A DNA stretch of 64,000 nt from Tetradesmus obliquus (Eukaryota; Chlorophyta; Chlorophyceae; Sphaeropleales; Scenedesmaceae). Each line of letters begins with the position of its first letter. Position 1 is the first letter of the stretch. Positions 1-63,811 of the stretch are shown piece by piece. Below the pieces are notes generated by a model. It saw only the letters and a list, made by a program, of their open reading frames with translations. It searched no databases and was not told the origin of the DNA. Where the stretch lies: NCBI GenBank assembly GCA_030272155.1, contig CP126201.1, forward strand, positions 3,384,501-3,448,500. Reading direction: 5' to 3'. The position numbers and the translations under genes were made by a program.

Positions 1-308
1 GTGAGCCTGCTGCTGTAGCTGCAGCTGCAGTGATATGCTGTTCATAATGCTGTTTGTGGCGGTGTTGATATCACTCTGGCACATGAGCATGGCCTCACAT
101 CAGCTACAGGGCGCCCCACACGGCTTCATGCGACTGTTGGCACTGCCTGACAAGCAGCAGTGCAGGCGCAGAGGGGCTGGGGCCAGCCTGAGACACCCCT
201 CATTTCGCCTGCAGCAACAACATAATGGGCGTAGTTGACACAGTGTATCTTTGTGCTAGCAATGGCGTGGCTGTGAAGCAATCATGTCTCCTTGTGTGTG
301 TCTGCAGG

Positions 309-415
309 TGCTGCACGCAAGCCTCTACTTTGCACAACTGATGTGTCTAGGTGTTCACTCGCCGTGCCGCAGGTGCTGCACCTGCTGCTGCATGGGCTTG
401 CGCAAGCTTCTGGTT
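309..415 (+). repeat. Two spare copies of the exon 469-622 start
   Basis: At about 309 and 372 a 'tgcag/cgcag' acceptor is followed by GTGCTGCAC, as at the working exon start (469). The copy at 372 keeps about 35 bases of exon (through the Leu-rich CTGCTGCATGGGCTT) before diverging; the copy at 309 keeps only the first bases. Neither has a usable donor at the matching place. Confidence 0.6.
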
Positions 416-468
416 GAGGCGCTCTGGTGAAACCTTGGATGTCTGTGTGTATTGTTCTAATGCCGCAG

Positions 469-1906
469 GTGCTGCACCTGCTGCTGCATGGGCTGCTGCG
501 CAAGCCGCTTGATGAAGCTCTGCTGGCTTTCATGCGGCTGGACGAGATGCTGATCGACATTGGGGATGACTTAACAGATTACGAGGATGACGTCATGGCC
601 AACTCCTTCAACATCTACAGGGGTGAGCAAATGTTTAACAGCATGGGCATTGTTGCATCACCAAGTAGGATGGTGTCATGGCCAGCTCAGTCTATGCCTA
701 CAGGGGTTTTTCTAACCTGTTGTAGCATTTGCATTGCTGCGTCATCAGTTACAAGGATGACGGCATGGGCCCTTCCCCTTTTATCTTGAAAGGGGCAATG
801 AACATGGGCTGTTGCCTTCCAGATTGCATGTGTCAAAGGAAAGGGGGCTGTGGCATGCTGGCAGCATACGCTGTGGCACGTGAGGCAGATGTGACTGGCT
901 GCATAATGACAGAGACTGAGGAGCAAACCGAGCCCTGCTGCCAGAGGCCCTGAAAGGACAGTTGCTCTGTGTGATCAAAGCCTAACGCTGCCGTGACTGC
1001 TCTCTGCTCTATGCTGCCTTGTGCTTGCAGGCTTCATCCACTTGTACGGCAAGGAAGCGCCCATGAATTTGGTGAGTGTGAACACGCTGCTGCTTACCTT
1101 CTGCAGCCCTGCCTGCCTGTAACACTGGAGCAGCATAGCATGGTAATGCAGCAGAGGCGCACAGAGCGCCGGTTGATGCCTGCCGTGCAAATATATGCAG
1201 GATACATACGCACTTTGCAGAAGCAGCATTATGCCTGCTGCCTGCTGACGCATGCAGCTGCCTGCCGCCTGCAGCCGTGTCTCCTGCAGGCTGCACGCAT
1301 CTCCCACCTGTGGGCCCACAGAGCACCTGGTCATGCCTGTAAGCTGCTGATGCACGCCGCTGCCTGCCGCCTGCTGTGTTTTGTCTTGGAGGCGGCGCGC
1401 ATCTCACACCTAGAGGACCACACCGCCCCTGACCATGCCTGCTGCCCGCATGCTGCATGCTGCTGCCAACGATTGACCCATGCTTTCATGCCCACAGGTG
1501 CATGAATGTAAACATTGCTCTAGGTTTTTATGGACGACTGACTTCTGCTTGCTGTCCGGCTGTCCTGCAGGCTGCGCGCATCTCCCACCTGGAGGCGCGC
1601 CGCGGCATGCTGCTGGCGCAGCTGCCGCAGGGGCTGCAGCAGAAGGTGCTGAAGCGACAAAAGGAGGCAGCCACAGAGGAAGGTGCGGCGCTGCTGCTGC
1701 TGCTGCTGCTGCTGCAGCGGCAGATACTCTGTAGTTTGACATTGTATTGATTGCTGTAAGCGGCTGTGGCAAGAAGATTGCAGGCAGCCTTGCGTTCAGA
1801 TTTGGGATGCTGTGAGTGGCTGCCGCAAGAGACACCTGTGCGCTCTGACACTGTGCCCTGTTTGACTCATGCCTGTGTGTGCTGGTGCCCTGCCTGGTGG
1901 GTAAGG

Positions 1907-19142: not shown

Positions 19143-20830
19143 TCGCTGCAGTATAAGCGAGTACCAGCTGAAGAGCAGTTGCCGCACGGATTGTGTCAGT
19201 GCACGGCAGCCAGCAGTTGCTGCGGCGCAGGCAAGGGTTTGTTTGACATGATGTTCACCCGCAGCTGCACAAGCCCAACACGTTTGAGTTGCTGTCTATC
19301 ACAACAGTCCACTTGCATCAGTCGCAAGCATTAGTCAATTTAAACAGATGTCCTGAAGTAGGCAGCACCTTCAAATGCACTCTGCAGGTGTCAAGCTGAT
19401 CAACTTGATGGGCTCAAACGGCACCAAAGCAGTCGCAGCAGCACTGATGGGCGCAGCCGTGACATGCGTGGACATCTCACCCTCCAACGCGCAGTATGGA
19501 CAGCAGCTGGCCGCAGCGGCTGGCGTGGAGGTGGCTTTTGTGGTGTCTGATGTGCTGCAGCTGCATCCCAAAGAACATCATGGTGAGCAGCGGTGCAGCT
19601 GGCTGCAGCAGACTGAAAGGTGTGAATGATGCCGCACAATACTGACATATTGGCCTCGCTGTTGCTTCAGCAGCGCTTGTGGTGTCTGATGTGCTGCAGC
19701 TGCTCAGCATGAGTTGCATGGTGAGCAGCTTGTACAGCTGGCTGCAGCAGGCGGCGCAGCTGTGCCAAGTGCCGCGCTGCATCATGCAACATGATGTTGG
19801 GTGGCAGGCGCTGCTGCGGCAGTGTTGCTAGTGCTGGCAGTTGGATCCATGCAACAGCTGGTGTGCATGCAGCAGCGGTACACAGCTGCAGATTGGGTTG
19901 TGGTCCACATGACTGCTTGCACTGCTTACTCCTTGCTCAACCTTTGCATCCCTGAATGTACTGCTGCCTGCATGAACCTGCAGGGCAGTACAATATTGTA
20001 CTGCAGGAGCTAGGCGTGCTGCACTACTTTGCTGACCTGCCTAAATGACTGCTTGCACTGCTCACTCCTCGCTCAAATTTTGCATCCCTGAATGTACTGC
20101 TGCCTGCCTGCACCTGCAGGGCAGTACGACATTGTACTGCTAGAGCTAGGCGTGCTGCACTACTTTGTGGATCTGCTGCCCCTGATGGCCAAAGTGGCGC
20201 AGCTGTTGGCCCCTGGCGGCAGGCTGCTGCTGCGTGAGTTTCACCCAATGTCCACGAAGCTCATTAGCTCAAAGGGCAAGAAGCATAAGGTGGCTGGCGA
20301 CTACTTCTCACAGGTGCGGGAGCTGCCGTGCTTGCCTTTGACAGCAGGTGCTGCAGCTGCGTCTGGAAGTGGAGCAGCTCTGACTACCCGTTGATTGTGT
20401 AGGGTATACACTACATACGTAGTGCGTGGTACATCGTACCCAGCCCCATCTTTAGTGCATTGCTGGGGCACCACTGCCAGCTGGTGCCCTTGAGAGTAAT
20501 GCGACTTCTGCTGTGCGCGGCGTGCTGCGTGCTGAAGTGGATTGTGTGCTGCTGCTGTTCCTGCAGACCTTGGTGGACAGCCAAGTGGCGTACAGCAAGT
20601 ACAACACCAACACCAACAGCAGCAGCAGCAGCGACAGCAGCACAGCAGGCAGAGTGCGCCTGCGGCAGTGGACTCTTGGCGAGGTGGTGAGCAGCGTTGC
20701 TGCTGCTGGGCTGGTGCTGCAAGTGCTTGAGGAGGAGCCGGGAGTGAAGCTGGCTGACGCAGGCCTGCCCAAGCTGTTCACACTTGTGGCTCAAAAGCCT
20801 GCAGGAGATGTACTCGGTTCAAGCAGGTAG
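17946..20830 (+). CDS. Class I SAM-dependent methyltransferase with N-terminal nucleotidyltransferase-like domain
   Basis: Exons 17946-18737, 18959-19097, 19388-19582, 20120-20313 and 20567-20830 give 527 residues in consistent phase. After a low-complexity N-terminus (about residues 1-95), residues about 100-260 contain WQAVEVLREQVAALGGCCYM, GATAAFLQGAEVP and QLTLTVQWDF. This is the pattern I would expect of a degenerate MNT-type nucleotidyltransferase fold (inference, weak). From exon 3 a methyltransferase follows: motif I as LMGSNGTKAVAAALMGAA, acidic cofactor loop VTCVDIS, VVSDVLQL, then YDIVLLELGVLHYF, LLAPGGRLLLREFHP, and a C-terminal RLRQWTLGEVVSSVAAAG...FTLVAQK block. This version of motif I and the ELGVLHYF/EFHP blocks is, from memory, typical of a bacterial (Firmicutes-type) family, so bacterial origin is possible. 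Substrate unknown. Introns 3 contain duplicated exon edges. Confidence 0.8.
19108..19142 (+). repeat. (CAG)n microsatellite just after a donor site
   Basis: About eleven CAG triplets start about ten bases after the donor at 19098 in intron 2 of the methyltransferase gene. If the intron were retained they would read as poly-Gln. Confidence 0.8.
19670..20045 (+). repeat. Spare exon-edge copies in methyltransferase intron 3
   Basis: Two separate events. At about 19678-19760 the end of exon 3 (TGGTGTCTGATGTGCTGCAG) and the following donor/intron are repeated. At 19909-20045 about 130 bases comprising the end of intron 3 and the start of exon 4 are duplicated; the spare copy reads QYNIVL-like sequence but has a shift and a TAG. 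The working exon 4 begins at 20120. Confidence 0.8.
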
Positions 20831-21500: not shown

Positions 21501-24500
21501 ATGCAGCCCCAGCAGAGTTCCGCTGGGCAACCGCCTGGGCTGCATAGAGTGAAGTTGTATAAGTTAAACGAAACAGGAGGATGGGACGACAAAGGAACTG
21601 GACTAGTAAGCATCGGGCCCATGGAGTTTGCAAACCATGCCTCCAACTCTGTCGGCCTGGTTGTGATCGGAGAAGAAACGCAGAAGATGCTCATGGTGCA
21701 CCGGATCTTGCACGAGGATATTTACAACCGGCAAGGTACGTTGCGTGTGCAGGCGTGGCACATGTGTGCTGCCACTGGGTGCCTGACCCTTGGGGTAGCA
21801 CTGACGTTCATTGCACCTTCCGCGCAGACGAGACCATCATTACTTGGACTGATCCAGACATTGGCACTGATGTGGCGCTTAGCTTTCAGGAGGGGCAAGG
21901 CTGCAATGCCATTTGGTGAGTTGCAGCAGTAGCAGCTGTCAAGCATCTGCTCCGGCAGACGTCTGCTGCTGCAGGAGCCCTTACTGACCCTCAACTGCGT
22001 GATTGCAGGCAGCACATTGTCAGGGTGCAGACAGACGCAGATCCCAAGCACCCAGGTGAGCTGTTGGGGTCGCAAAGCATGGACAGCAGCAGCACCTGGT
22101 GTAGCAGCAAGCGTGAATTCGAATTGCCTGCAGTTGCTGCTATTATGACGTGTGCCTGTTCTGTAGCAATATGCATCAAGACGTGTGTAGGTGACTTGGT
22201 TGTGATGTTGCATGTCTTAGCATGCCACACCGCAAGAACTCAGCACTTGAGCAGCAGCCTGCTGTGGCAGTGTGAGCAAACCTGCATCGCGTGTGTGTTC
22301 ACGCTACCTTGATCGTACAGGCGACTTCACACACTTCTTGGGGCTGCGTCTTGTTGAAAGTAACTGCTGCTCTGCCGTGTTTCCGTCTTATGTTTCTGTC
22401 TGGATGTAGATCACCGGCGGCGGGTGATCGACGAGTTTGATGGGCCAGTGGGTCACCTAGATGGTGCGTACGTGCCCCAGCTTGCGCGCAGCTTTCAGCA
22501 GCAGCAGCAGCAGCTTCAGCAGCACTGTTATGTGCTGGTAGCGTAATCACGGCTAGGGCGCGCTTAAGCAGCCGACGTGTCTTTGCTGCTGGAGGGTATC
22601 AGCCGGCTGCCTCTGTATGAAAGTGCAGTGGCTAGTCTTGCAGGCTGATGGCAGGCATGCGTTAGGGCAAAAGCTCGGCCAGGTCATGTCAGCAGCTGCT
22701 ATTAGTTGATCCCCCTGCAGGTTTTTGACATTCAGCAGTAGACCGCCTGGTGCATGATGTCTGTCATGTGCTGCTGAAGATTCTGCGGCAGTGCAGCAGC
22801 AGCTGTCGTCTTGGCTAGGCCATGCTTTTGCTTGCAGCAGTGTGCAGTGTATGCAGGGTGGTTTGCTTGGCATTTATGTTGGCAAGGCGCGCAATTGTTC
22901 AGCTGCACAACTCGGCTCTGAAACTCCGGCAGGCCTGGCAGTCAGTAGCTGTTGCTGGCTTGTGTGATGCCTAGAACTATACAATGATGCTTATGTTCAG
23001 CTGCAAGGCCCAGCCTAGTGCTCTGCTGACGATGTGATGTTGGTTGCCTGTGTCTGCTGTGCTGCAGGCGACTACCTGCATCATGACGTGGCAGACATGG
23101 CGGGCGCTGGCCACGTTGAGCTGCCAGCAGCAGAAATGGCAAACCTGGAGGAGATTGCCAAGGTGTGGCATGCACCAGAAGATGCAGCAGCTTGCAAACC
23201 ATCAAACATAGCTTACCGGAACGTGCAGCACATGGCACCCTGACAACAGAACAGCAACACCAGCAAGGGCGGCTGCAATGGATGTCTGTGCGCAGCACCT
23301 GCCTCGTTGCATATCGCTGTATTTTGCAGCCAGGCGTGCTGTCACAGTGGTGGTGCTGTTGGTGCTGCTGCTTGTGCTGCAGGTGCTGGCTCACGTGCCA
23401 CCCATGCAGCGGGAGCGAGTGGCGCAGCTGCTGATGATGCCCAACTACCTGCGCAAGCTGCTGGACATCTTCAGGGTGAGGCAGCGCTGTCCTGCAAGCA
23501 GCAGCACAGGCTTCCTGCAAGCAGTGGCGCGGGTGTCCTGCAAGGTGGCAGCAGCAGTAGCGGGCAGCAGGGCGGCAGCTGGTAATGCAGCACGCCACAG
23601 CATTGTTTGTGCGGCTGAGGGCATGGCGCAGCCAACAATGGGCGGCTATAGGCGCATGGGATCGGGCAACAGCTGTGGGGCACAGCATGCATCGCCCTAG
23701 ACACGGCATGCTGCTGTGAATATCACGCTTGCGCCACCATCTGTAGCAGCGATAGCAACGACTGTGCACCACGCCTTACTGTCACCTTTGTTGCCAATCA
23801 CAGCTCGCATGTTGACAAGTTTATGCAACTCTGGTTGCTTGCTGCCTACCTGCCTGCAGCAATGTGAGGACCTGGAGGACCTGCCCAGCCTGCACCACAT
23901 GTTCAGGCTCATGCGCAGCATCATCATGCTCAACGACACGCAGGTGCGTGTGTGCAAGGACTCGAGGCAGCAGCAGCAGCCTTTGCAGCAGCGGAGGCAG
24001 CAGTGGCGGCAGCAGGAGCAGCAGCAGTGCTGGCAGCAGGAGCAGCAGAAGCTGCGGTAGAAATAGGCGATCACGAATGAGCTAGTTGGCTGAGCATGAA
24101 CATGCAGCTGCGGACACTCACAACATGCTTGCAGGAAACCCCGCAGGGCAAATGCAGGCCATGTCTAGCAACTTGTGCGCTACGTGCTCACTGCTACCTC
24201 ACACACTCAACATGTCTTCTGCTCCATGTCTTATGCACTGCTTGATGCTTATTGCTTGATGTCGCATGCCTGCAGCTGCTGGACGAGCTGCTCAACATGT
24301 CTTCTGCTCCATGTCTCATGCACTGCTTTGCCGCGTGCGGTTGGTTTGGTGCCTGCAGTTGCTGGATGAGCTGCTCAAGGAGGAGCATGTGATGGGCGTG
24401 ATCGGCTGCCTGGAGTACGACCCAGACCTGCAGACGCCGCAGCAGCACCGCAACTTCCTGCAGACAGCGGTTGTGTTCAAGGAGGTGGTGCCCATCACCA

Positions 24501-36965: not shown

Positions 36966-37069
36966 AGTGCTATGTCGCCGGGAGATAGAAGCGCACGCCT
37001 TTCTGCGGGGTGATCTTCCCCAACTTAGCATCATGAATAATGTACCACAGCAGCCCAAATGGAATGCTG

Positions 37070-40858: not shown

Positions 40859-43800
40859 ATGCTTGTGCGGCTGCTGTCACTGGCAGTGCGCTGTGGCGTG
40901 TGTGCGTTCACACTTTCAAGCGCCAATCGCGTAGTCTGCAACAGAAAGCGTGGCGCTGCATTGTTGGGAAAGGGAGGCGCTGGAAAGATCATTATAGTGA
41001 CAACGGCGGCGATCCCATGGCGAACAGGTGCACCGTCTCAATATGTTGACACGTTGCAGCACTGTAGAAGCAGCAGCACTGCTGCTGAGCAGCGCCTGTG
41101 TTCATCCACATCATGGAAGCAGCACGCTCCTGTGAGACGTGCTTGTGCGAATTTGGCTTACACAAGGACGTGGTGAAAGGGCTGCCGTGCCATGTTTGCA
41201 ACTCAGAGCATGCCCGTGTGTGTTGTGGTGTGCAGGCACCGCTGTCAACCCAGCACTGCGAGCAGCGCAGCTGGCAGCTGACACAGAACACGAGGTCGGT
41301 GCACCAGCTGCACGTGCAAAGCAGCAGCCCACCTGCTGACGTTGGAGCAGCCTGCTGCCAGTGTATCATACACACATCTTGCTACCAGCAATTCATCAGC
41401 TGCAACTGCTTTTCCTTAGCTGCCTGCTCTATTTTCCGATGCCGACTGCAGTCATTAACAACAATCCATGCTGACTCAGAACAGCTATACCACAATCATC
41501 TCACAAAAGTAAAACAACATACCAAACAGGTAAACTGCTTTGCCGTAGGTGGTGCTGGTGGTGCCATTCGTGCCAGTGGAGGACCAGCGACTCATCTTCC
41601 CTGAAGGAGTGACATGCAGCACCCCGCAGCAGCAGGAGGCCATCATCAAAGCCTGGGCCCGGGAGCACAGCGGCTTGCAGGAAACTGACTTTACAGTGCT
41701 GTTCTATGCGGCACGGTATTTTCCTGCAAGCCGCTGCATCTTCGCAACAGAAGATGTGTGCCGGCTGCTGCCAAAAGAGCAGGTGGGCTGGGCTGGGGTA
41801 CAGCTGTGACTCATCAGCAGTGGGTGATTCATGTGCCACATGACCTGGCTCCGCAACAGGCAAGCAGCAGTTCACACACGTTTCTTTGTTGTAGATGGGG
41901 GATTATCAGTGCTTCCCCTTTGCAAACTTGAAAATGGGAAGCACTGGTAATCCTCCATCTACAACAAAGCAAAAAATGTCTGCCTGCTAGGTGTCGCTGG
42001 TGGTACTCCATGAGCTTGTGGCCTTGTTCACTCATGCGTTTCCATGAAATGCTGCCGTCCAGGTGTCGCTGGTGCTGCTGGAGGAGCCGGAGCACCTCAA
42101 CTGGTACAGGGCTGGCAGCAGGTGGAGCAACCAGTTCAGGTGTGGTGAGGGTGCTGACCATACCATTGGCTTGGCTGAGTCAAAATCACGAGCAGGGGCA
42201 GCATGCCTTGCAGCAGCGTGTGCCCCTGACCGAGGATGGCCTGTCAGCAGTGCAACATAGTGTGATTGCTGACCACGCGACACCTAGCCCTGCAACCTGT
42301 ACACAGCCAGCCCTTCATTGCAGCCACTGCTTTGACTTGTGCTGTGTTGCACCTGCTGCGCCTGCATCTGCAGCCACGTGGTGGGCGTGCTGCACACGCA
42401 CTACAGCGGCTACGCGGCAGACCTGCCTGGCGGGCCCATCAACAAGGCCGCGGTGGGCCTGGTGTGCCGCGTGGTGTGCCGCCTGCACTGCCACAAGGTG
42501 CGGCGCTAAATGAGCAACATACATAGAAAGCGCATGAAGCACGATGAAGTCATGCACAACACAGCAGCAGTCTGCGGCGCAATGGTGCCAAGTAAGCAAG
42601 ACTGTGGACAGGACATCCACGGCATGTGCTCTGCTGCTCCACCGCTGCTGCTGCTGCTGCTGTTTGCAGGTGCTGCAGCTGTCGCTGCTGGCCAGGGGCC
42701 TCACACGCAGCGCAGTGGTCAACGTGCACGGCGTGTCTGCAAAGTTCATCACGGCAGGGGAGAAGAAGGCAGCGCTGCTGCGCTGGCAGCAGCAGCAGCG
42801 GCACCTACAGGCACTTGAGCATCAGCATCAGCAGCAGGACCAGGATCAGCTGCAGCATAAGCATCAGCAGCAGCAGCAGCAGAAGCATTTTGATTGTGTG
42901 CTGCAGCACAGCAACGACCAACAGAAGCAGCAGCAGCCGCAGCAGGTGGAGCTGGTTGCAGCGTGTGGCCAACCTGTCCAGTCTGCATTCAGCAAGGTGG
43001 GCAGTGCAGGCTACGCAGCATTCCCGGGGTGCCTGCAGGCACCTGCCACACATGCAACATGCACAGAGCGCCAACTCTATACATTCCCACCACATACACA
43101 CTCACAAACCGTGCATCACCCAGTGTTTCACACAAACCTCAGCATGCTGCGTGTCAACTGCACACTGAATTGAGTTCTTTTTGTGTTTGCAGGGCGCGTA
43201 CTTTCTGGGCAAGGCGCTGTGGGACAAGGGCCATGGGGATATGATGGCGCTGCTGCAGGACCACGAGGCCAAGCACGGCCAGGTGTGTGCGTGTGTTGTG
43301 TTGTTGTTGATGTAGAATTTTCATGTTGCATGTATATCTTGTTGTTGTTGGCGATGCGCCCCGTCTATCTGGGCTGCCTCCTGGTGACATGCTGACTTGT
43401 GAACTGTCAGGTGCAAGAACATACCCTGCTGACAGCAAACAAGTTCATACTGCAATGATGGTGTACTTCTCGCGTTGCCCACATGCCCTGCAGGTGCCTG
43501 TTGATGTGTATGGTTCTGGCCCTGACCTGGCATCCATCCAGGCTGAGGCAGCTCACAACAAAACACATATTTAATGTAACAGTCAGGTTGCTTTGTGCTG
43601 TGGGCTGCTGCAGGTGCCTGTTGACGTGTACGGCTCCGGTCCTGAACTGGCAGCAGTCCAGGCGAGGCAGCCAGGAGGGTCATGGCCCTGGCCATCCAAA
43701 GTAACCAACATACCATGATGCTACTGTTGCGCTGTGGGCTGCTGCAGGTCCCTGTTGACGTGTATGGCTCCGGCCCTGACCTGGCAGCCATTGAGGCTGA

Positions 43801-45841
43801 GGCAGCCAGGAGGGGCCTGGCGCTGAGCTTCAAGGGCCAGGCGGACCACTGCTGCCCCGCGCTGCAGGAGTACAAGGTGTGAGGCTGCTTCTGTGGGTGC
43901 ATGCGCTGTGGGTGTGTAGCTTTTATATCATGGATGGTTGTGTGCATCAGTGCTGCCCCACCCTGCAGGAGTTACAGGGTCGTCAAGGGGCTGCTTTGTG
44001 TGTTTGTGGTTGTACTGAAAGCTGTGTGTTGGGTATGAGGGCAGCCAGGAGGGGCCTGGCGCTGAACTTCTTAGGCCAGGCAGACCAGTGCTGCCTAGCC
44101 CTGCAGGAGTACGAGGTGCGGAGAACTGCGCTGTGGCTCTGCTGTTGCGCTGCTGGGTGTTCAGTTCGCCCGAGCGCTGCACATAACAAATTTGCACGGG
44201 TTTGCATGTCGCAAACGCTGCCCTTTCCTGTCTGCATCCCGCAGCTGCACTCTGACCCAGCACAGTACCAACACCCTCCTCTGCCTGCTCTTTCCTTGCC
44301 GGCCGCCAAACCACCGCACTTGTGCACTGCAGGTCTTCATCAACTGCTGCAAGAAGGATGTGCTCGCCACAGCCACAGCAGAGGCGGTGGCCATGAACAA
44401 GTGGGCGCTGCTGCCCCATGCGCCCTGCAACGCCTTCTTCGCGCAGTTCCCCAACGTGCTGCTGTTCAGCAATGCAGCAGGCTTCAGCGCAGCACTGTGC
44501 AGGGCACTCGAAGAGGAGCCACCAGCGCTGAGCGCTCAGCACCTCAGGTGAGGATGTGGGGGCTTTACGGTGTGCTGTGCTTTGATGGTTTAGTAAGGAT
44601 GCAGGGTTGCCGCGCAGCAGGCTTCAGCGCAGCGCTGTGCAAGGCACTCGAAGAAGAGCCACCTGAGCTGAGCGCTCAGCACCTCAAGTGCGTTTGGGGG
44701 CGTTTGGTGTTCTGTGCTTTTGTGGTTCTTGTAAGCATGTGGCGTGGCAGCGCAGTGCTGTGCTGTGCAAGGCACTCGAGCAGGAGCCGCATGCGCTCAG
44801 CGCGCAGCACCTCAGGCGAGGATGGCGACGCTTGCTGTTTTATGCTAGCGTGTGTTGTAAGCTTGTGGGTTGGCAATGCAGCAGGCTTCAGCGCAGCACT
44901 GCGCAGGGCACTCGAAGAAGAGCCGCCTGCGCTGAGCGCGCAGCACCTCAGGTGCGTTTGGGGGCTTTATGGTGTTCTGTGCTTTTGTGGTTTTGTAAGC
45001 ATGCGGGGTGGCAGGGCAGCAGGCTTCAGCGCAGCACTGTGCAAGGCACTCGAAGAGGAGCCACCTGCGCTCAGCGCGCAGCACCTCAGGTGAGATTGTG
45101 GACACTCGCTGTTCTGTGCTTTTGAGGTTTTGTAGGCATGCGGGGTGGCAGCGCATCAGGCTTCAGCGCAGCGCTGTGCAAGGCAGTTGAAGAGGAGCCC
45201 GCTTGCTCATACTGCGCAGCAATCTAGGTGAGGATAGATGCACTGCTTCATGCATATGTCAGCCGCTGCTGTCCTGCGCTATGCTGTTTTTGCAGAGATT
45301 CATCCCTTAGGTTGTCTAATTATGCGTCCGGCTTTGGTGCTACTTTGCTTGCTTGTACAGAGCTGATCTGCGCTGCTGCCACAGCTGCTAGTGCTACTTG
45401 TCCTTGGCCATTGCATCTTTTGCAACCAGCTTCTCGTGTGCTGATCATGGCCCGCTCTTGCTACTTGTATGCTTGCCTGCAGGGAGCTGTCCTGGGCTGC
45501 TGCCACGGAGCTGCTGGCTGCTGCTCTTTTTCAACTACGATTTTCCTTGCTCCTGCGTGGTCTAATCAGTGTTGACGCTGCTACTTTTATTGGATTGCAG
45601 GGAGCTGTCCTGGGCTGCTGCCACAGAGCGGCTGCTTGCTGCCGCCTCTATCCAAGCACAGGAGTGGCCAGGCGCAGCAGCACAGCTGTGGGACGACTGC
45701 CTGTGGGTGCCCTACCGCCTGTTTGCGCTGCTGTTCATTGGAGCACGCAACGCGTTTGCGCCAGCACCCAAGCTGCAGCAGCAGCAGCAGCAGTGCGGAG
45801 CACAGGAGCCGCTGCTGCAGGTGCAGCAGCTGATGGTATAG
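40859..45841 (+). CDS. DGD: Digalactosyldiacylglycerol synthase (GT4 family, DGD type)
   Basis: Ten exons: 40859-41027, 41236-41294, 41549-41782, 42063-42139, 42374-42497, 42670-42996, 43193-43282, 43748-43876, 44333-44547, 45601-45841. They total 554 residues, close to plant DGD2 plus an insert, with all phases matching. The enzyme transfers galactose from UDP-Gal to monogalactosyldiacylglycerol at the plastid envelope to make DGDG. Diagnostic blocks in order: IIIVTTAAIPWRTGTAVNP, EEPEHLNWY, HVVGVLHTHYSGY, VVNVHGVSAKF, GAYFLGKALWDKG, VDVYGSGPDL, VFINCCKKDVLATATAEAVA (donor-binding E-x7-E region), ELSWAAATERLL. Exon 6 carries a Gln/His-rich insert of about 65 residues between GEKKAA and AFSKGAYF, unusual for the family. 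The start at 40859 is the first in-frame ATG; a transit peptide or further upstream exon is possible. Four junctions are flanked by spare exon-edge copies. Confidence 0.95.
41884..41969 (+). ncRNA. 34-bp stem hairpin in DGD intron 3 (miRNA/siRNA precursor-like or miniature foldback)
   Basis: Arms 41884-41917 and 41936-41969 are reverse complements over 34 bases, with an 18-base loop. The two non-identical positions are G-T and T-G, so in a plus-strand RNA both become G-U wobbles and the stem is fully paired; in the opposite strand they would be A-C mismatches. This fits an RNA hairpin processed from the DGD transcript, but a miniature foldback transposon would look similar. No product is proven. 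Confidence 0.6.
41991..42012 (+). repeat. Spare copy of DGD exon 4 start
   Basis: A 'tgctag' acceptor followed by GTGTCGCTGGTGGTACTCC mirrors the working exon 4 start at 42063 (GTGTCGCTGGTGCTGCTGG). It lies directly after the hairpin. Confidence 0.6.
43494..43685 (+). repeat. Two spare copies of DGD exon 8 start
   Basis: At 43494 and 43614 a CTGCAG acceptor is followed by sequence encoding VPVDVYGSGPDLAS and VPVDVYGSGPELAA. The working exon starts at 43748. Both spare copies lose the frame after about 55-65 bases. The period is 120-134 bases. Confidence 0.9.
43950..44116 (+). repeat. Two spare copies of DGD exon 8 end
   Basis: At about 43950-43975 (CAGTGCTGCCCCACCCTGCAGG) and 44041-44116 the intron repeats the end of exon 8. 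The second copy reads AARRGLALNFLGQADQCCLA-LQEYE and is followed by gtgcgg, so it keeps a donor. Confidence 0.85.
44477..45227 (+). repeat. Six-copy array of the DGD exon 9 3' end (about 140-bp unit)
   Basis: The first copy (44477-44547) is the end of the working exon. Further copies end at about 44688, 44816, 44951, 45089 and 45227, each reading AGFSAALCKALEEEPPALSA-like sequence and ending CACCTCAG or a variant, followed by intron-like sequence with GTTCTGTGCTTTTGTGGTT. The third copy is internally shortened. Several copies are preceded by GCGCAG or ATGCAG and could be spliced as cassette exons. Confidence 0.93.
45483..45525 (+). repeat. Spare copy of DGD exon 10 start
   Basis: CCTGCAG acceptor plus GGAGCTGTCCTGGGCTGCTG matches the working exon 10 start at 45601. 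Confidence 0.85.
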
Positions 45842-45909
45842 GAGCAGCTACTGGGTACAGCTGTTAGTGCATATGTGGGTGTGTGGGTGGGTTATGTGTT
45901 GATCTGAGG

Positions 45910-46098
45910 TGTGAGGGAGTGGCCAGGCGCAGCAGCACAGCTGTGGGACGACTGCCTGTTGGTGCCCTACCGCCGTTCGCGCTGCTGTTTACTGGTGCAC
46001 GCAACGCGTTTGCGCCAGCGCCCAAGCTGCAGCAGCAGCAGCAGCGGCAGTGCCGAGCAGGGGAGCCGCTGCTGCAGGTGCAGCAGCTGATGGTATAG
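45910..46098 (+). repeat. Downstream copy of the last DGD exon, frameshifted
   Basis: About 180 bases after the DGD stop repeat the 3' part of exon 10 (EWPGAAAQLWDDCL...LQVQQLMV then TAG) with a small deletion after CCCTACCGCC that shifts the frame. It has no preceding acceptor that would keep the reading frame, so it is probably 3' UTR or flank. Confidence 0.88.
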
Positions 46099-48049
46099 GA
46101 GCAGCTGCTGCAAATGGCTGATGCCGTTGCTTGTGTGTATGCTAGTGTGTGGATTCGGTTATGTGTGTATGTATGGGAGCCGGAGTTGCATGGCTGCGGC
46201 TGTGTACACAGTGTGTTATAGGGTGGTGGTGTGTTACGGAAGTGTGTAGGAGAAGAGTGAAATGCATTGGCATGCAAGTGTGTGCTGCAAGGCTTTGACT
46301 GGATAGGCCAGATGGCCGTCCAAAGCGCCTCAGTGTGTGATTGTTGTGTGATGAGTGACGAGGCGTGATGAAGAATGCCGAGGTCTGTAGTGGACTGCTG
46401 AGGTCTGTATTGTGCAGCCTTGTGGAAAGCCAGTAGCTTGAAGAGGTTTGCCATGCTGTGTGGCTTGCTGCAGATAGGCACTCCGTGCCGATATTCAGGT
46501 GCATTTGTCTGAGTTTCAAGTATGCAGCTGTAGCGCCGAAGACAACAGCGTTGGCAACTGGTGGCATGTGCAGAGTCGTGATGGCAGTGCTACTGCTGCA
46601 GACACCGTGTTAGGATAGAGCGATTAGTGCCAACAATGTACAGTACAAAGCATGGAAGCATGCTATGCTAGCAGTGTAGCTGGCACTTTGTGCAGCGTAG
46701 CTAGCGCTGCATTTAGCACAGTGTGTTCTACGGCGACGGCCATGGAGCTGCTTGCCCCAATCTTCCTACCGCTATCACACATTGCACAGCTGATGTTTTG
46801 AAGTTTGGATTGGCACCATATAACAGCGATACATCATCCTGTGAGCTTGACTTAATTCCATTCCTGCCAACAACGGCAACAGCCACTTGTGTTGCAAGCA
46901 GCTACTTGAGTTGCATGACGCCGTGGTGTGTGTGCATGTGCAGCATGGAGACCATGGTCATGGCGATATCACCAGCCAGGTTCCCTGCACCCCACTGCAA
47001 CAATCCCACGAGGCAATGCACTGTGCTAGCAGACACGGATGCCTTACAACCACACTGACACTGGTGTTACCGGTGTGTGATTTGCTGCCTTTGTGTGCTG
47101 CATCTGCTTTCAGCAGCCCGAGTGTCCAGGCAGGGGAGTTGCGGACATGCTTACACTCTTTACTAGTAAGTAGTATACTGCTCTTGAGTTGCATTTTGCG
47201 GCATCTGCCAGTGGCGTTTAAACCAGGGCATTTTGGCTCGACCAGCCTGCATGTATGCTGCAGCAGTGCATACATCAGTTTAGTAAAAGAGGACAGGGGC
47301 TGAGCACTGGCGTGTCTGCAGTGTGCCTGCTTGCTATGCAAGAGACATGTACGATGGTGTAGTGCTCCTTCCTGTTGCCGCTCCACTGGGGCGTGGGGCC
47401 GATGGCGTTGAGCTATGGCTTAATGGGAAACTCGATGATGATGACGATGTCTCAGTGTGTCATCACTGCACATGGCAGGCCTGAGGTGGCCATGCCGCAG
47501 GCCTGAGGCATGCACTGCCAGTCACTGGCCAGCTATTAGCAGATCATTCCAGTGACAAGGGCGCAGTATGTTGCATCGTGCTGCTGTAAAGTGTGTTACC
47601 TGCAGTTCTTTATAAGTGTTACCAGCATCTCTTTACACTACAGCTGTGAACCCAGCAGGATCACTTCTGGTCCCCACCGTGGCGTCAGTTTGGACCAGGC
47701 ATATGCGTATGGATTCACCGCTAGGGCTTTCATCTGCGAGAGGCTTGTCGCAGGGGAGGGCAAGTGAAGACCCGAATTACTTTAAGTATAGAACCCTTTG
47801 CTGTCATTAGCGTGTTATACTTGCATGGTTAAGAGCGCGGCACAAGTAAAAGCTCATGAAGAGGATTGAGTAGAGGTGCTCGTTTTTTTGCTGCATATAA
47901 GCCTGAATTGATAGTGGACTTCGGCTGCCGCTGGTTCTAGCTGCTATCACTTTGTACTGCCTGCATCTCGCGCGCACGCCTTGCCACGCGGTTGAACTCG
48001 CAGCTGCTTGATTGAATCAATCTGGATCAATAATTTGTTTAGTATTGAC
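46099..48049. other. Intergenic region
   Basis: 3' flank of DGD and upstream region of the LRR cluster. Short open frames (for example 46723-47058 and 46887-47303) have no family character. No clear regulatory element seen. Confidence 0.5.
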
Positions 48050-49840: not shown

Positions 49841-49842
<2 letters not shown>

Positions 49843-51507: not shown

Positions 51508-51540
<33 letters not shown>

Positions 51541-57742: not shown

Positions 57743-58799
57743 TCAGCTAGCTTCCGTTGGTGCAGCTGCTTCCCCAGCCTGCCCTGCTTCTGTCACATCC
57801 ATGTCATCTGCTGCTGCTGCCGCCACACCATCTACTGCTGCTACTGCATCATCTGCGGCTGCTGCATCTGCAGCGGCGGCATCTGCTGTTGCCGCAGCTG
57901 CTCCAGCTGCGTGCTGCTGCTGCTCCAGCTCCCGGGCAAAGGCGTCCAGCCGCGCAGCCTGCTCCTCCGCTGTCTCTTGCTCCTTCACCTTGATCTGCAG
58001 CAGCAGCAGCAGCAGCATGCGCGTTGGAACAACCAAGCAGTAGGCAGCAAGAGCTGCAGCTAACAGCCTCGACACGCGCTTGCTGTATGGCCGGCACATG
58101 CTTCATGGATCGCAAGCAGCACTTTTGCAGATACCGACTTCAAGCGTCGTCACAATGTCAAACCCTCGCCGTCTGACAGCCACAGTACATGCTATAACTG
58201 TTACTTGCATAACACTTGACTCACGTGGTAGCTGGTGAAGCCGTCCCACATGTGCGCCACAATCTGGTGGCCCCCAAAGAAGCGGCCGTTCATCTTCCCC
58301 AGGCAGGCCTGTGCCGGCTCCTCTTGCTTGAACCGCACAGTGATGATGCCCTGGGGGTGTGAGGCAAACACGCGCACCTGCGGCAGTGACAATGTTCCAG
58401 GAGTTGAGATGGTTTCAAAGGGTGCGCATGCTCCTCCTGATTGCAGCGCACAGTGATGATGCCCTGCGGTGTGAGGCAAACACGCGCACCTGCGGCATAT
58501 GAGGGAATCTGATAGGCGTTTAGTTACTTGCAAATGGGTGTGCAAAATCCCCCTGCTTGAAGCGCTCAGAGATGATGCCCAGGGGGTAAGAGGCACATCA
58601 TGTTCTACCACACAAGTAGCAGTGTGTGTATCTGCAGTTCATGCGTGTTCGAACAGCAGCGCTCCTTCACTCACCTTTTCCACCACCCCCAGTTTGGAGC
58701 ACTCCGCTGCCACATCCGTCTCCAGCTCTGTGGCAAAGCTGTCGCCGCCAGCAGCAGCCTCGTCCAGGGTGAACATGCCCTTGAGCACCACCGTGACCT

Positions 58800-58831
<32 letters not shown>

Positions 58832-61800
58832 GCTCAGTCTTGCCACCAGCAGCAGCCTCGTCCAGCGTGAGCATGCCCTTGAGCACCACTGTCACCTGCA
58901 GCAGCAGCAAAGCAGCAGCAGCAAACCCTTAGCTGCACGCATGACAACAACATGACATGACATCCCATAACAAAGTAACCATGTTACAGCAACTCCACAC
59001 ATCTGTCTGCTCACCCTCTCACGAGGCAGCAAATCATCATAGCCGCCCCAGCCCACCTTGCAGCCCACAGGTACAGCTGCAACCATGATTACACACAATA
59101 AAGTAACAAAGTTGTAACAACAACATATGTTGCAAACCACGCTTGCTCACCCTCTCAGGAGGCAGCACATCATCAACCCGCCTCAGCGCAGCTTGCAGCC
59201 CTCAGGTACAGCTGCAACTATAACTACACGCAAAAAGTAACAATGTTATAACAACAACATAAACAATACAATACGCATACATAACACACTACTCACCCGC
59301 TCAGGCGGCAGAACATCATCAAAGCCTCCCCAGCCCAGCTTGCGCGCCTGCTTCTCTGCCTGACTGAACTGCTTCTTCTTCCCGCCCCTGCCTCCCTTGC
59401 CGCCCCCTCTGCCGCCGCCCCTGCCGCCGCCACTGCCTTTGCTTGCATTGCCGCCGCCTTTGCTGGCATTGCCGCCGCCTTTGCTTGCATTGCTGCCGCC
59501 ACCGCCTTTCTTGTCCTTGTACTGCTGACCCTTCATTTCAAAGCGGGCCACAGTGACTGACAGCGGAGGGCCTACTGCACGCAGTGGGGCACCATCTAGG
59601 ATCTGGCAGGCGATGTCCACTGAGGGTTCCTTGAGGTATGTGACTAAGCCATCACCCTTGAGCATGCCGCTCTCCCTGTCCCTGTAAGAGTGCGCGGTGA
59701 TCAGCAACGGTGTGCAGAAGTTGATCAACATGTGTGTCCACGCAAGTTTCCTGAGGTACGTGACCAAGCCATTCCTTCAGCACGCCGCTCTTGCTGTCCC
59801 TGCAGCAGAAGGATTACGTACGTAGTGCGGCACAAGCGCACAGGTCTGCAGGGCATGCAGCGCACAGGTCTGCAGGGCATGCAGCGCACAGGTTTGCAGG
59901 GCATGCAGCGCACGCACCCCAAGTAGCATGATCCATGCTCATACTCAGAGTATCAAACTCACTTATGGGGCTTGATGTATGGCTGAGCATGAGTGGGTGC
60001 TTTGCGGGTGAGCAAGGCATGCAGATGTAAGCACCGGCATGCTTCACGTGGCAGCATGCGCAACCATATGCGACACCACTCGCCTGTACAGCTTGATGCG
60101 CGGCTGCCCCGCGTCGTCCAGCTTGATGATGCCGCAGCGCGCAAAGTGCTGTGCAGGTCAGCAGGGCATGCAAACATTGTAGACTGGCATGCACATGTGT
60201 GTACACACTTGCCTGTACAGCTTGATGCACGGCTGCCCCGCGTCGTCCAGCTTGATGATGCCGCAGCGCGCAAAGTGCTGTGCAGGTCAGCAGGGCATGC
60301 AAACGATGTAGACTGGCATGCACATGTGTGTACACACTCGCCTGTACAGCTTGATGCGCGGCTGCCCCGCGTCGTCCAGCTTGATGATGCCGCAGCGCGC
60401 AAAGTGCTGCGCCACCTCATCCACGTCGGTGTCATCAGGCAGCCCGGTGACGTACACGCTGGTGTTGACCTGGCGGCGGCAGCAGCAGCAGCAGCAGCGG
60501 AGGCCGGGTGATGTGTTGACAGAAGATTGGCAACGCATGGGGTAGCCTTGGACACAGTGGCTCTGGGTGTGCTTAGCAGAGCAACAGAGGATGCCAACGG
60601 CAAGCAGCAGGGTGAGCGGCAGCCAGTGGAGCATGCAATGCAACGAAGCAGAGCGAGGTGGCGCACGCCCAAATGGGCAGTTGCTGCCTGACCTATGGCA
60701 GCTTTGTGAACTAGTGCAGAAGAAAGAAGGCAAGTAGCGCATTGCTGTGAATGCGCAAGCCTGCTCTGGGTATAGGGTTCATTGTCAGCCATGCGGAGCT
60801 GCTGGGAAGGCAGCTACCCGTGCAAACCTGGAGCCTGTGCAACCGCATATCTGTTACGCAGTGTTGCCTGTGTACGGCACAATGCATGTGCATGTTTACA
60901 GTACGGCATGATTTGGTTCTACAGATCTGCATTGTGGACACGTGTGCTGTCAAGGAGATGTGGTCCGAGCCCACCAAGCTAAAGCAGCACACATGCTGGT
61001 GCAGACGTTAACGATGTGTACTGATTAAAATTGCTTTATGTTGCATGTTGCATGCAGTGCATCATGAAAGATGCCTACAGAAGCAGCATGGCAAGTGCCC
61101 TAGTGGGCGGTTGATCTGCGCACAGCACAGCATAGGCAAAAATAACAACGCCATCTGCCGCGCTGCATGCATCCATCGCCGCCCCGCACAGCTGGGCCTA
61201 CACGATCACTTTATCGTGATCGGAGTTCTGAGACCCGCAGCCTCCCCAATATCGCTCTGTGCTGTAAGCATTCTCAAGACCCTACACCCTCCCCTGGTCT
61301 AACACTGCCTGTGCGCAGGTCAAATATGAACGCCAGGCGCGTCTGTGCAGCTCCGCACGCGCTGCGCCTGCGCCCCAGACACATGAAAGATGCGTTCTAC
61401 ACGTTGGAAGGCGCCCCGCAGGATGGCTGAGGTCGTGGACCTCTGTAGCAGCGATGAAGAGGAGCAGCATGTACTGGGCATCATCACGCTTAACAGCTGG
61501 CTATCGACAGACCATCTCACGCTGTGGGCAGAGCTCATGAACGAGCACGCCGCACGGCAACGAGGGCAGCTAGGGACCGTGCTGTTCTGCGCAGCTCGGC
61601 CCCTCAGCGGTCTGCACGGCAGCATAGGCAGCTTGGGCTTTGCAGCTAGCAACAGTGCTAAGCTGTTTGTGATGCCCTTTGCCCACCGCTCGCACTTCTT
61701 CCTAGTGGGCATTCGCGATGGCGTCGTCAGGTAGGTCCCCACGATGGCAGTCCAGGCCGAGGCTCCTCTCGCAGGACAGGTCTCGGTACCAGTCTTAGCG

Positions 61801-63811
61801 TTTGCATGTGGTTCCGGTTTCCATTAAAACGCTTGCAAGCGGGATCAGCAGCAGAGATCATCACACGGCAGTAGCACAGGGCCAAGCCACAGCATTTGCT
61901 CCGTTCTGTGAGCCCTGCACGTGCACACCCTTACATCCTTCCTTCGAGAACCCACACCCCCAACCCCATCCTGATCTGTGGCTTCCTGCTGCTTGCTGAT
62001 GCGTGCCTGCAGGTACTTCCTAGACCCCATGAGCATGGCGCAGCGCACGCTCAGCGCGTTCCAGAAAGCCAGCATCCGCAGCATCCAGTCAGCAGTAGAT
62101 GGCTGTAGCCCAGACCTGGACAGCATTGCAACAGGCGCAGCAGCCTGGCAGCAGCTGCTGCTGGCGCCGAGCGTGCACCCGCAGTGGCAGGATGCAGCAG
62201 CGGGCGATGGATACAACTGCGGCGTCTTCTGCTGCCTGTACATGTGGGAAATCCTGTACCGCAGGCCCTGGGCAGGTGGTGACGTGGCAACATTCCGGCA
62301 GCATGTTGCGACGCAGCTGGACTGCTGGTGGCAGCCGACAGTCGGCATGAAGCGGCGGCTGCGCAGCAGCAGCTTCTGAGGGTGCGCTGTGATGCCTGCC
62401 GATATTGTCTTTGTTGCCGCTTGTTGCGCGTGCGCGTATGTGCCCCGCGCGCCCCCGTGCCAACGCATTTGTCCGCTGTTGTGCACGGCAAGAGCCTGTT
62501 ATGTGTAGTGTTTGGGATCACAGGCCGCATGCATTGCATCCAATGCGCTGCTGTTGTGAACGCCGTAGGTAGCAGCCACAGCATCTGCACATCGCTGCAG
62601 CAGTGCTGCTGGTGCTGCGGTGGCTGGGCATGTGAATCATCTTTGTTGGCGCCCCATGAGTAGTGTAGTGTCTTTCTCGGCTTGACTTGTTAGGCTGCTA
62701 AGTGCTGACTGTGTAGGCCAGCAAAGGGGAGGGTGGGGTGCATTCATTCTGATGGTGGTGTATGGGGTGTGTAGCAGCAGTGTACCTATCCTGAGCGCGT
62801 GTTCAGAGCACGCATGCCTTGTGAACTGTACAGTATTGTGTACGATACAATTTTTCTTCTTGCATTCTGCAGCCTCCCTGTCATGGAGCTAGCCTAAGTG
62901 TCTGCTGGTTGATTTTCCGCTCAAACCAGTCGTGAAAGCACGCATCATCGTGGCATGACATCACAGGACGTGATAATCTGCTCTGATGAGCAGTAGGGCT
63001 ATGTATAGGCAGCACACTGAAAGCACTATCCGAAGTTGTGTTATTGATGCTGATGAAATCCTTCTTGGTGCGTGTGGAGCGCCCGCTGCACGTTTCATGT
63101 TCCCATACATGTGTGCATGTTGTGGGCGCCTGGTGTCCGTTGCAGAAGCTGCAGTTGCAGCTGCACAGCCAGGATCATGTTGCTGTGGTGTTGTGTGTTT
63201 GCAGCAAACATACCAAGTGTAACATGCCGCACGATCATGTCAACTTGCTGTGGAGTTTCTGCCTTGATTTGACCCATCCCACTGGGACCTGTGGACTGCT
63301 GAGCAGTGAAGGCAGCAGCAAACACAGCCGGCTGTAGAACCCCGTTGCAGTTAACATTTGGAAGATGGCGGCGCTCGACCAACACAACACCGAAACTGCT
63401 ACGGCTTCAAACATGACTACTGCAGTGTTCGCCTTTGCCTCAATGGCGCAACAAGCAAACCTCAACATAACAGCAGCAAACCAGGCGCCTGCTCACCTTA
63501 AGCTCGAACCACCCCTGGCTTAGTAACACGCTCTGCAGCCCCCATAACAGCAGGACGGTCGAACCAGCCCTCTGCCCCAACAGCGCAACAACCACACTGA
63601 AACACCGCCTGTTCACCTTGAGCTCGAACCAGCCTTCTGTTGGGTTGTAGGGGAGGGGGGGGGGTCAAAATCAACAGCGCAACAACTGAACCGCAACAGC
63701 AGCAAACAATGCGCCAGCTCACCTTGAGCTCGAACCAACCCTTGGGCTCCTCAGCCTCCTCCAACTTGCTGCCAGCTGCAGCTGCAGCAGCACCCTCAGC
63801 GCCAGCATCCC
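57743..63811 (-). CDS. HTATSF1-like: Cus2/Tat-SF1-like U2 snRNP splicing factor, 5' end outside window
   Basis: Minus-strand exons 63811-63723 (likely), 60469-60342, 59681-59297, 58797-58675, 58377-58225 and 57994-57743, all phases matching. The first ends GWFELK and joins VNTSVYVTGLPDD, the expected GWF-x(2-6)-NT-VYV-GLP order just before RRM1. RRM1 continues ARCGIIKLDDAGQPRIKLYR and GDGLVTYLKEPSVDIACQIL. A Gly/Lys-rich linker (NASKGGG repeats) leads to KLGWGGFDDVLPPER. The UHM-type RRM2 follows, with VTVVLKGMFTLDE, AAECSKLGVVEK, VRVFASHPQGIITVRF and MNGRFFGGHQI; the R-x-F motif binds ULM peptides of SF3B1 in known homologues. The tail is Glu/Ala-rich. The protein should act in U2 snRNP assembly in the nucleus. 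The intron after RRM1 exon 1 has a GC donor. The 3.25-kb intron 60470-63722 contains another gene on the plus strand. Confidence 0.9.
58436..58592 (-). repeat. Two spare copies of the start of Cus2-like exon 58377-58225
   Basis: At 58436-58497 the minus strand repeats the acceptor plus VRVFASH and GIITVRC/FKQE-type sequence with a lost base. At 58550-58592 a shorter, more diverged copy is seen (CATCATCTCTGAGCGCTTCA). Both lie upstream of the working exon in transcription order. Confidence 0.8.
58798..58832 (-). repeat. (CTG)n tract forming the 3' splice site of a Cus2-like intron
   Basis: On the minus strand about eleven CTG triplets end in CAG directly before exon start 58797. The spare exon copy at 58897 is preceded by its own CTG tract. 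Confidence 0.85.
58855..58897 (-). repeat. Spare copy of the start of Cus2-like exon 58797-58675
   Basis: Minus strand reads VTVVLKGMLTLDEAAAGGKT after a CTG-CAG acceptor; the working copy reads VTVVLKGMFTLDEAAAGGDS. The copy is cut off by the next CTG tract. Confidence 0.9.
58990..59296 (-). repeat. Two spare copies of Cus2-like exon 59681-59297 end plus intron (about 140-bp unit)
   Basis: Copies ending at about 59015 and 59152 read GWGGYDDLLPRER (gtgagc) and a degraded DDVLPPER (gtgagc), followed by related intron sequence rich in AACAACAACAT. They lie downstream of the working exon end (59297). Both keep a donor. Confidence 0.85.
59736..59799 (-). repeat. Spare copy of the start of Cus2-like exon 59681-59297
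   Basis: Acceptor CTGCAG followed by DSKSGVLKE and further related but shortened sequence; the working exon reads DRESGMLKGDGLVTYLKEP. Lies upstream in the transcript. Confidence 0.8.
60084..60342 (-). repeat. Two spare copies of the Cus2-like RRM1 exon end (129-bp unit)
   Basis: Copies at 60084-60150 and 60213-60280 match the last 65 bases of the working exon (ends 60342). Each has a GC donor (AG|GCGAGT or AG|GCAAGT) and also an acceptor-like ACCTGCACAG in front, so each could act as a complete 65-base exon. Confidence 0.92.
61390..62379 (+). CDS. Ulp1/SENP-like (C48) cysteine protease, nested in an intron of the Cus2-like gene
   Basis: Exons 61390-61730 and 62013-62379 give 235 residues; an in-frame ATG at 61423 (MAEVVDLCSS) is an alternative start. 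Known relatives cleave SUMO or related modifiers. The sequence shows the C48 layout: an early Trp (NSWLSTDHLTLW), VMPFAHRSHFFLVGI with the catalytic His, RYFLDPMS with the Asp, and DGYNCGVFCCLYMWE with the nucleophile Cys. The oxyanion Gln expected about six residues before the Cys is Ala here. Near the N-terminus VVDLCSSDEEE looks like a SUMO-interacting motif with its acidic flank (inference). It is short for a SENP, so it may be just the catalytic domain. The gene lies antisense within the 60470-63722 intron of the Cus2-like gene. Confidence 0.83.
62380..63496. other. 3' flank of the protease gene / rest of the Cus2-like intron
   Basis: No gene I can support on either strand; short open frames at 62986-63468 have no family character. 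Confidence 0.5.
63497..63645 (-). repeat. Two spare copies of a Cus2-like 5' exon end
   Basis: At about 63497-63520 and 63614-63645 the minus strand repeats TGGTTCGAGCTTAAGGTGAG-like sequence (WFELK plus donor). The working copy ends at 63723. Spacing is about 115 bases, and the intervening CAACAGCGCAACAAC-type sequence repeats too. Confidence 0.85.

Follow-up and report, generated by a model that had tools for sequence, protein, structure and literature searches.

The 64-kb window of the Tetradesmus obliquus genome, the whole stretch of DNA that was annotated at first pass, carries 12 gene models of at least 100 aa. Arrays of short tandem repeats were present in seven of them, the number of affected gene loci given in the first-pass annotation. 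On the forward strand, exon-start arrays occur at 365..526 (period 96; working acceptor 469, spare copy upstream) and 1231..1595 (period 102, 73% identity; working acceptor 1571), followed by an exon-end array at 19538..19750 (period 139; working donor 19583) and an exon-start array at 19909..20176 (period 136; working acceptor 20120), a clean tandem duplication including 75 bp of intron. The PP4R3 (SMEK) gene, on the same strand, harbours a probable exon-start array (24206..24378, period 85), an exon-start array whose 39-bp spare copy is 92% identical (27077..27228, period 113; working acceptor 27194) and an exon-end array whose spacer occurs once in the genome (27303..27478, period 127; working donor 27346). 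The gene finder places a start codon in the first of these. Since the Pfam match starts inside that array and at position 65 of the 497 in the profile, the PP4R3 gene must reach further upstream. The tandem duplication at 35420..35707 (period 149) lies at a predicted small exon of a weak gene model of uncertain strand.

The GCIP gene (reverse strand) has an array at its 3' end, in the last exon (36555..37190, period 265), and two exon-start arrays (37223..37674, period 141, approximately 3 copies; 37821..38013, period 137). In the DGD1 gene (forward strand), exon-start copies at 43488..43879 comprise two spares upstream of the working acceptor (43748), and the annotated protein contains the third copy only. 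They overlap exon-end copies at 43801..44118 (working donor 43877, spares downstream), and the two features were counted as one merged array in clustering. DGD1 also harbours a six-copy exon-end array (44469..45235, period approximately 138-140; working donor 44548, in the first copy), an exon-start array (45338..45642, period 121; working acceptor 45601) and, at its 3' end, an exon-end array with a weak coding anchor (45661..46110, period 255, 93% identity). The Tat-SF1/Cus2 homologue (reverse strand) has exon-start arrays at 58317..58595 (period 113), 58744..58923 (period 98) and 59614..59802 (period 121), and exon-end arrays at 59007..59343 (period 136) and 60077..60412 (period 129, 2.6 copies, 97% identity; working donor 60338). 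A further reverse-strand exon-end array (63440..63742, period 231) belongs to a partial gene model near the window edge.

The window was analysed together with two 100-kb control stretches (C1 and C4), 264 kb on three contigs in all. Local direct-repeat pairs detected by self-BLAST were clustered into arrays, and one Markov-shuffled version of each stretch served as the null. Gene models came from a gene finder trained on the same 264 kb without transcripts; arrays sharing a gene are not independent. Self-BLAST returned 52, 75 and 49 direct pairs in the window, C1 and C4 respectively, vs. 0, 6 and 0 inverted pairs. The shuffled versions gave 0 pairs each, and a shuffling artefact was rejected. 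Clustering resulted in 28, 37 and 14 arrays (79 in total), 9 of which were purely coding; the remaining 70 are the basis of the junction counts. An array was considered anchored when it covered an exon edge supported by coding evidence from beyond its own limits. This was the case for 56 of the 70 (31 acceptor, 25 donor), including 18 of the 24 in the window, where two more arrays resemble exon edges by homology (43488-44118 in DGD1 and 24206-24378 in PP4R3). The splice-junction-spanning duplications described at first pass are thus real. More than 25 spare copies had been claimed, and the automatic count, which over-splits long arrays, was approximately 40 in the 24 window arrays. Anchored arrays reached 28, 32 and 6 per 100 kb in the window, C1 and C4, so the pattern is not peculiar to the window. 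They were distributed over 20 of the 55 genes in the 264 kb, and their clustering in particular genes was not significant given intron number (p 0.08).

Where the exons and introns of a gene are short, a unit of approximately 120 bp is bound to meet a junction often, and the excess might therefore be unreal. The first-pass annotation had proposed this comparison with chance as a check. The test reported here places full repeat units at random; an earlier version using the aligned part only gave a stronger excess and was replaced as less fair. Uniform placement on the 264 kb predicted 35% of units on junctions, while 80% were observed (56/70; p 1.1e-14). Within genes, the expectation was 57% vs. 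88% observed (56/64, counting 5 doubtful arrays as intron-only; p 9.8e-8). In simulated decay, detection was mildly class-dependent (0.69 for junction vs. 0.58 for intron arrays; the simulation sampled the intergenic class approximately 2x too often, and only its within-gene ratios were used). This raised the within-gene expectation to 60%, and the excess persisted (p 1.9e-6). The impression of junction bias comes largely from short exons and introns, because chance alone gives 57% within genes, but chance as the whole explanation is very improbable. Intron-only arrays were 3 of the 70 and intergenic arrays 1 of the 70, against approximately 27% and 31% expected. Uniform duplication followed by survival is not sufficient alone to explain this scarcity.

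Periods of the anchored arrays were narrowly distributed (middle half 113-144 bp; 51/56 within 87-163) and ignored the reading frame (17, 18 and 21 arrays in the three classes modulo three). By contrast, all seven purely coding arrays with periods below 110 were multiples of three; the other two (557 and 634) were not. The exon part of the duplicated edges measured 20-90 bp in 67 of 94, under 20 in 15 and over 90 in 12. Duplication of a whole exon with both splice sites and the frame kept, as in a duplicated cassette or mutually exclusive exon, was not what these arrays showed, although single arrays could be exceptions.

Many pairs have an X-Y-X geometry, two copies separated by an unmatched spacer Y. 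This geometry would suit insertion of a mobile element or introner that generates long target-site duplications. However, there was no convincing spacer family in the 264 kb (short or CAG-rich matches only), nor near-identical inserts at many loci, and the three spacers searched against the genome, with simple repeats skipped, each matched their own place only. We regard such an element as the least probable of the origins considered. Intron flanks were related even where strict homology stops within 10 bp of the splice site: none of 300 mispairings reached the observed mean (18 acceptor and 16 donor edges, 34 edges from 27 arrays). This hidden intron homology led us to reject copying halted exactly at the splice consensus. 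Most X-Y-X pairs probably arose as tandem duplications across a junction, in which the intron half diverges fast; in some, a gap beside the splice site may simply have cut the alignment short. Of 37 anchored arrays with at least 85% identity, 22 had an aligned part covering less than 0.75 of the period; tandem duplications simulated as neutral, under an assumed indel rate, did so in 1% and 12%. Neutral decay of both halves alone is insufficient; intron halves diverge faster than exon halves.

The exon parts of the copies differ by 0 to 18%. Mismatch between working and spare copies was.047,.048 and.128 at the three codon positions (approximately 1:1:2.7; 79 edges, 51 arrays), and.053,.056 and.128, with 2 stops, at the edges without intron-flank homology. 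This pattern fits a nearly neutral spare beside a constrained working copy; the ratio of 2.7:1 exceeds the 2:1 that a spare evolving fully neutrally would show. As the first-pass annotation had noticed, many copies keep a splice site: splice dinucleotides were intact in 21 of 24 clean spare copies, roughly the fraction estimated to survive drift (approximately 83%). Spares might instead be maintained by selection, as alternative or poison exon edges or as splicing regulators. Their exon halves do retain more similarity than the intron halves duplicated alongside, and in 13 clean pairs the acceptor context is pyrimidine-rich (score 0.50 vs. -0.69 in random intron). However, larger or more sharply defined sets give lower scores, 0.05 (n = 46) and 0.19 (n = 18); mismatch is greatest in the first 10 bp beside the splice site (.096); and the near-neutral codon pattern, the disregard of frame and the survival of dinucleotides at about the drift expectation all stand against function. 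Moreover, in the annotated T. obliquus proteins of Tat-SF1, DGD1 and COX15 (3/3), only the exon-contiguous copy is present; at 59614..59802, for instance, the spare reads DSKSGVLK and the working copy DRESGMLK, and the annotated proteins carry DRESGMLK only. These proteins possibly come from strains lacking the spares, and are better proof of the working copy than of spare skipping. A function for the spares is accordingly improbable, and the earlier suggestion that they feed alternative splicing was not supported. The gene finder predicts extra small exons in several arrays and extra introns in some, but those three proteins show one copy. Ab initio gene models in T. obliquus can contain false exons.

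The side on which spares lie (upstream of exon starts, downstream of exon ends) was as first described in 36 of the 40 simple pairs having exactly one predicted junction in exactly one copy; the other 65 of the 105 simple pairs comprised 18 without such a junction and 47 with mixed patterns. The side is uninformative on mechanism, because any tandem duplication across a junction must look so if the gene is to keep working. The pairs are direct and local and include intron sequence, as expected of intragenic tandem duplication. Since the copies carry intron sequence, they were templated by DNA or unspliced RNA and not by mRNA. Among 301 spliced-junction queries, only 7 matches lay off the query's own exons, all CAG-rich or within an array (12 further matches touch the query's own exons); mRNA retrocopies were rejected on this result and on the related intron flanks. 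Genome searches with six genic stretches revealed no second whole copy among the best candidates (at most 40 per stretch; for one stretch, all from one repeat element), and no recent paralogue that could polarise the events among those listed.

We consider it probable (roughly 0.6) that the arrays are ordinary short intragenic tandem duplications, retained at places where the surplus copy can be spliced out. Short duplications, mostly of 87-163 bp, would arise at a high rate within T. obliquus genes. Selection would purge wholly exonic ones whose length is not a multiple of three, while junction-spanning ones would persist, the spliceosome joining the frame-keeping exon edge and the extra copy turning into intron; the spare-side rule would follow because splicing drops that copy. 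Once two copies are present, unequal exchange or slippage could generate arrays of 3-6 copies, and the same exchange may, as a guess, hold exon halves alike while intron halves diverge. The lasting outcome would be longer introns that contain unused copies of splice sites; raw material for a new intron would be supplied only now and then. The narrow unit size is not accounted for by this explanation.

That size, together with the near absence of intron-only and intergenic arrays (3 and 1 among the 70) and the predominance of direct pairs, would speak for targeted duplication at transcribed exon edges, through a DNA-break or template-switch process with a unit of approximately 120 bp around the splice site. 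Young arrays point the same way: 10 of the 15 with at least 93% identity are anchored, 2 more read as exon edges (C1 19096 and 92383), and the remaining 3 have short periods (66-78). However, young arrays are few, the mechanism is hypothetical and the within-gene excess over chance is only approximately 1.5-fold. We hold such targeting to be unlikely, though less so than any other rival. The process would be tied to splicing, to pausing of RNA polymerase, to R-loops or to nucleosomes. In its fuller form, equally tentative, an active border-tied duplication, probably of transcribed DNA, would combine with re-copying of exon edges into the spares by exchange, so that introns would grow as they swallow copies of their own borders again and again; it would concern T. 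obliquus and perhaps green algae more widely. As to the ongoing genome-wide process proposed at first pass, its occurrence in three stretches on three contigs, at all degrees of divergence and with a junction excess, stood; its feeding of alternative splicing did not.

Intron growth or gain by tandem duplication has often been argued from single cases, and here 56 exon-edge arrays occur in 264 kb. If this density holds genome-wide, T. obliquus strains would show junction duplications appearing, spreading, expanding and decaying, and the frequency with which a duplication becomes a new intron or alternative exon would be measurable in them. The copies range from identical to 18% diverged.

Among the papers listed in the literature searches, none described exon-edge duplications in Scenedesmaceae, judged by titles and the start of abstracts; in the available text of two Sphaeropleales genome papers the words 'intron' and 'splice' are absent and 'tandem' does not concern repeats. 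The first-pass annotation knew of no described system, but related ones exist. According to the available part of PMC3887541, tandem repeats in Chlamydomonas and Volvox are enriched near intron-exon junctions, in introns and coding sequence. These are green algae too, but the top motifs given there are mostly short (e.g. GT/AC) and are not exon-edge copies. Intragenic segment duplication, called common in the accessible text of PMC3443670 and PMC4974935, is of the same kind as the T. obliquus arrays, which appear to differ in density, narrow unit size and concentration on exon edges. In the model of intron gain by tandem duplication, duplicate splice signals are supplied, as in T. obliquus; there, however, exonic sequence is doubled and a new intron results, whereas here an existing junction is doubled and an existing intron grows. 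A further case is the potato RdRp gene, in which, as the available part of PMC4974935 describes, a tandem genomic duplication crosses an intron-exon border, as in T. obliquus. That is one case, in which RNA reads reveal that an intron was gained and that the mRNA contains an inserted exon, while T. obliquus has dozens, with the spares apparently dropped within the enlarged intron.

Local direct-repeat pairs numbered 52 in the window, 75 in C1 and 49 in C4 (100-kb control stretches from other contigs of the same genome), while shuffled versions of each yielded 0, so that the exon-edge tandem duplications claimed in the first-pass annotation are indeed present. These pairs formed 79 arrays (local direct-repeat clusters) in 264 kb, 9 of them within coding exons. 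Among the 70 arrays that were not purely coding, 56 were anchored on an exon edge for which coding evidence existed beyond the array itself (31 acceptors and 25 donors; 18 in the window, 32 in C1 and 6 in C4), 5 touched a predicted gene end and 9 were unanchored. At least three of the 14 non-anchored arrays are also read as exon edges (PP4R3 at window position 24206, DGD1 at 43488 and, at C1 92383, the H2TH gene, for which the call drew partly on what we take to be the Fpg motif), and these three were excluded from the counts. Exon-edge arrays occurred in 20 of 55 genes (370 introns) across the 264 kb. Five consecutive intron-poor predicted genes at C4:2087461-2100000 (pieces L020-L021) were without exon-edge arrays; their third-position GC was 0.77-0.89, above most neighbours.

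Gene models were predicted with our own gene finder, trained on the 264 kb made up of the window, which spans C11:3384501-3448500, and the two 100-kb stretches from C1 and C4. The trained splice consensus resembled CAG/GTGAG at donors and CTGCAG/G at acceptors; GC, permitted by the model, stood for GT at 8-11% of the predicted donors. Pfam confirmed the array genes PP4R3, GCIP, an RRM (Tat-SF1) protein, COX15 and two Clp proteases, as well as a kinase, an H2TH (Fpg-type) protein and a DUF4202 protein. DGD1 had no match in the Pfam search and is identified by strong homologues bearing that name. The COX15 predicted in C1 was 98% identical to a T. obliquus COX15 protein over the whole length.

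In the null model, units of the observed periods were put at every array-free position and the exon-only class was removed, leaving the survivable classes. Junctions were duplicated beyond chance in these predicted gene models (56 of 70 arrays vs. 35% expected, p = 1.1e-14; this and the following p-values assume independent arrays and are generous). The remainder comprised 3 intron-only arrays (27% expected), 1 intergenic (31%), 5 at gene ends (8%) and 5 others. Within genes, 56 of 64 arrays (88%) lay on junctions vs. 57% by chance (p = 9.8e-8, the 5 others counted against). Simulated decay gave junction copies a mild detection advantage (0.69 vs. 0.58), and the detection-adjusted within-gene expectation was 60% (p = 1.9e-6). 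The junction excess is real, at about 1.5-fold inside genes.

Anchored periods spanned 87-258 bp, with the middle half at 113-144 and 51 of 56 within 87-163, and disregarded the reading frame (remainders by three 17/18/21). Coding arrays with a short period were all multiples of three (7 of 7), which is what purifying selection predicts. The window contains in-frame coding repeats at 34207-34422 (seven copies of a 30-bp unit, 98% alike) and at 10850-11688 (a proline-rich protein with units of 78 and 99 bp). The exon part of the copy measured 20-90 bp at 67 of 94 edges, and median strict homology was 16 and 20 bp on the intron side vs. 47 and 55 bp on the exon side. GC was intron-like between matched parts (.542 vs..543) and exon-like in the matched part (.609 vs..616). 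Direct pairs predominated, with 0, 6 and 0 inverted pairs in the window, C1 and C4. Multi-copy arrays (3 to 6 copies) exist in DGD1 (window 44469-45235), a Clp gene (C1 19320-19859) and the kinase (C1 66345-67129). A CAG-rich stretch in the DGD1 region (window 42600-42950) has imperfect matches at many genomic places, and three tandem paralogous genes at window 48273-56793 (about 70% identical at the nucleotide level, leucine-rich-repeat-like on visual inspection) include a poly-aspartate repeat at 49735-49842.

Intron flanks were clearly homologous at 53 of 79 edges (51 arrays; acceptor 24/40, donor 29/39). At edges whose strict homology gave out no more than 10 bp from the splice site, the outer flanks nevertheless resembled each other more than mispaired controls did (acceptor n = 18, donor n = 16; 0 of 300 permutations). 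Since homology thus extends into the introns, even beyond an early stop, the edges are mostly junction-spanning tandem duplications. Divergence is greater in the intron half than in the exon half: flank identity was.82 (.72 when mispaired) at a 5% difference between exon parts, and of 37 anchored arrays with at least 85% identity, 22 aligned along less than 0.75 of their period, compared to 1% and 12% in simulations. An mRNA source is unlikely, because 301 spliced-junction queries turned up no convincing duplicate of such a join away from exons; the 7 matches there were all CAG-rich or within an array, and 12 further matches touched the query's own exons. Genome-wide searches (104.66 Mb, 17 contigs) found each of three tested spacers once, ruling out a mobile family among those three. 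Intron gain may have left its mark at C1:1004810-1004867, where the 18 bases preceding a predicted acceptor are an exact repeat of the last bases of the upstream exon and the spliced join matches at 100% over 58 bases. A 145-bp intronic element at C1:1087172-1087316 (L010:7172-7316) adjoins an exon-start array, recurs in at least 39 other genomic places at 92-95% identity and carries repeated GTGAG at the start of one strand; its piece, L010, had no Rfam match at gathering score, and the element may be an introner or a short interspersed element.

Mismatch between the working copy, which is continuous with the remainder of the exon, and the spare in the neighbouring intron was.047,.048 and.128 by codon position (about 1:1:2.7), and.089,.090 and.192 in an overlapping earlier set. 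With 1:1:2 expected for a neutral spare facing a working copy under constraint, these data describe a spare that is mostly neutral, apart from slight constraint or the misassignment of some pairs. Mismatch peaks within the 10 bp adjoining the splice site, which counts against a role in splicing; that spares are functional is considered improbable. The T. obliquus Tat-SF1 (P0121), DGD1 (P0241) and COX15 (P0001) proteins contain a single copy, the exon-contiguous one, as does Scenedesmus sp. Tat-SF1 (P0122). These annotated proteins may themselves be predictions, and some at least come from other strains or species; they confirm which copy works and are weaker evidence for skipping of the spare.

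Duplication is local and direct, is in excess at junctions and leaves a near-neutral spare. Our main reading, at a probability of roughly 0.6, is that these are ordinary short intragenic tandem duplications which survive via splicing. Exon-only duplications would break the frame and then be purged; junction duplications would be tolerated, as one splice-site choice would restore the old mRNA, so that the spare of an acceptor must fall upstream of it and the spare of a donor downstream. Exchange among the exon halves, anchored by the selected working copy, would explain the faster divergence of the intron half and the multi-copy arrays. A duplication process targeted to exon edges is a bolder alternative that we consider unlikely. 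Paired nicks, polymerase pausing, nucleosome spacing and flap processing are conceivable factors for the units of about 120 bp and the scarce intron-only and intergenic arrays.

The first-pass annotation knew of no described system, a claim that did not stand: the kind of event is already known, and what we did not find in the literature searched is the density, unit size and exon-edge concentration seen here. Tandem duplication is accepted as one way in which introns are gained (PMC3443670, PMC2891723), and in green algae tandem repeats are enriched close to intron-exon junctions (PMC3887541). The potato RdRp duplication described in PMC4974935 crosses an intron-exon border in the same manner as the arrays reported here.
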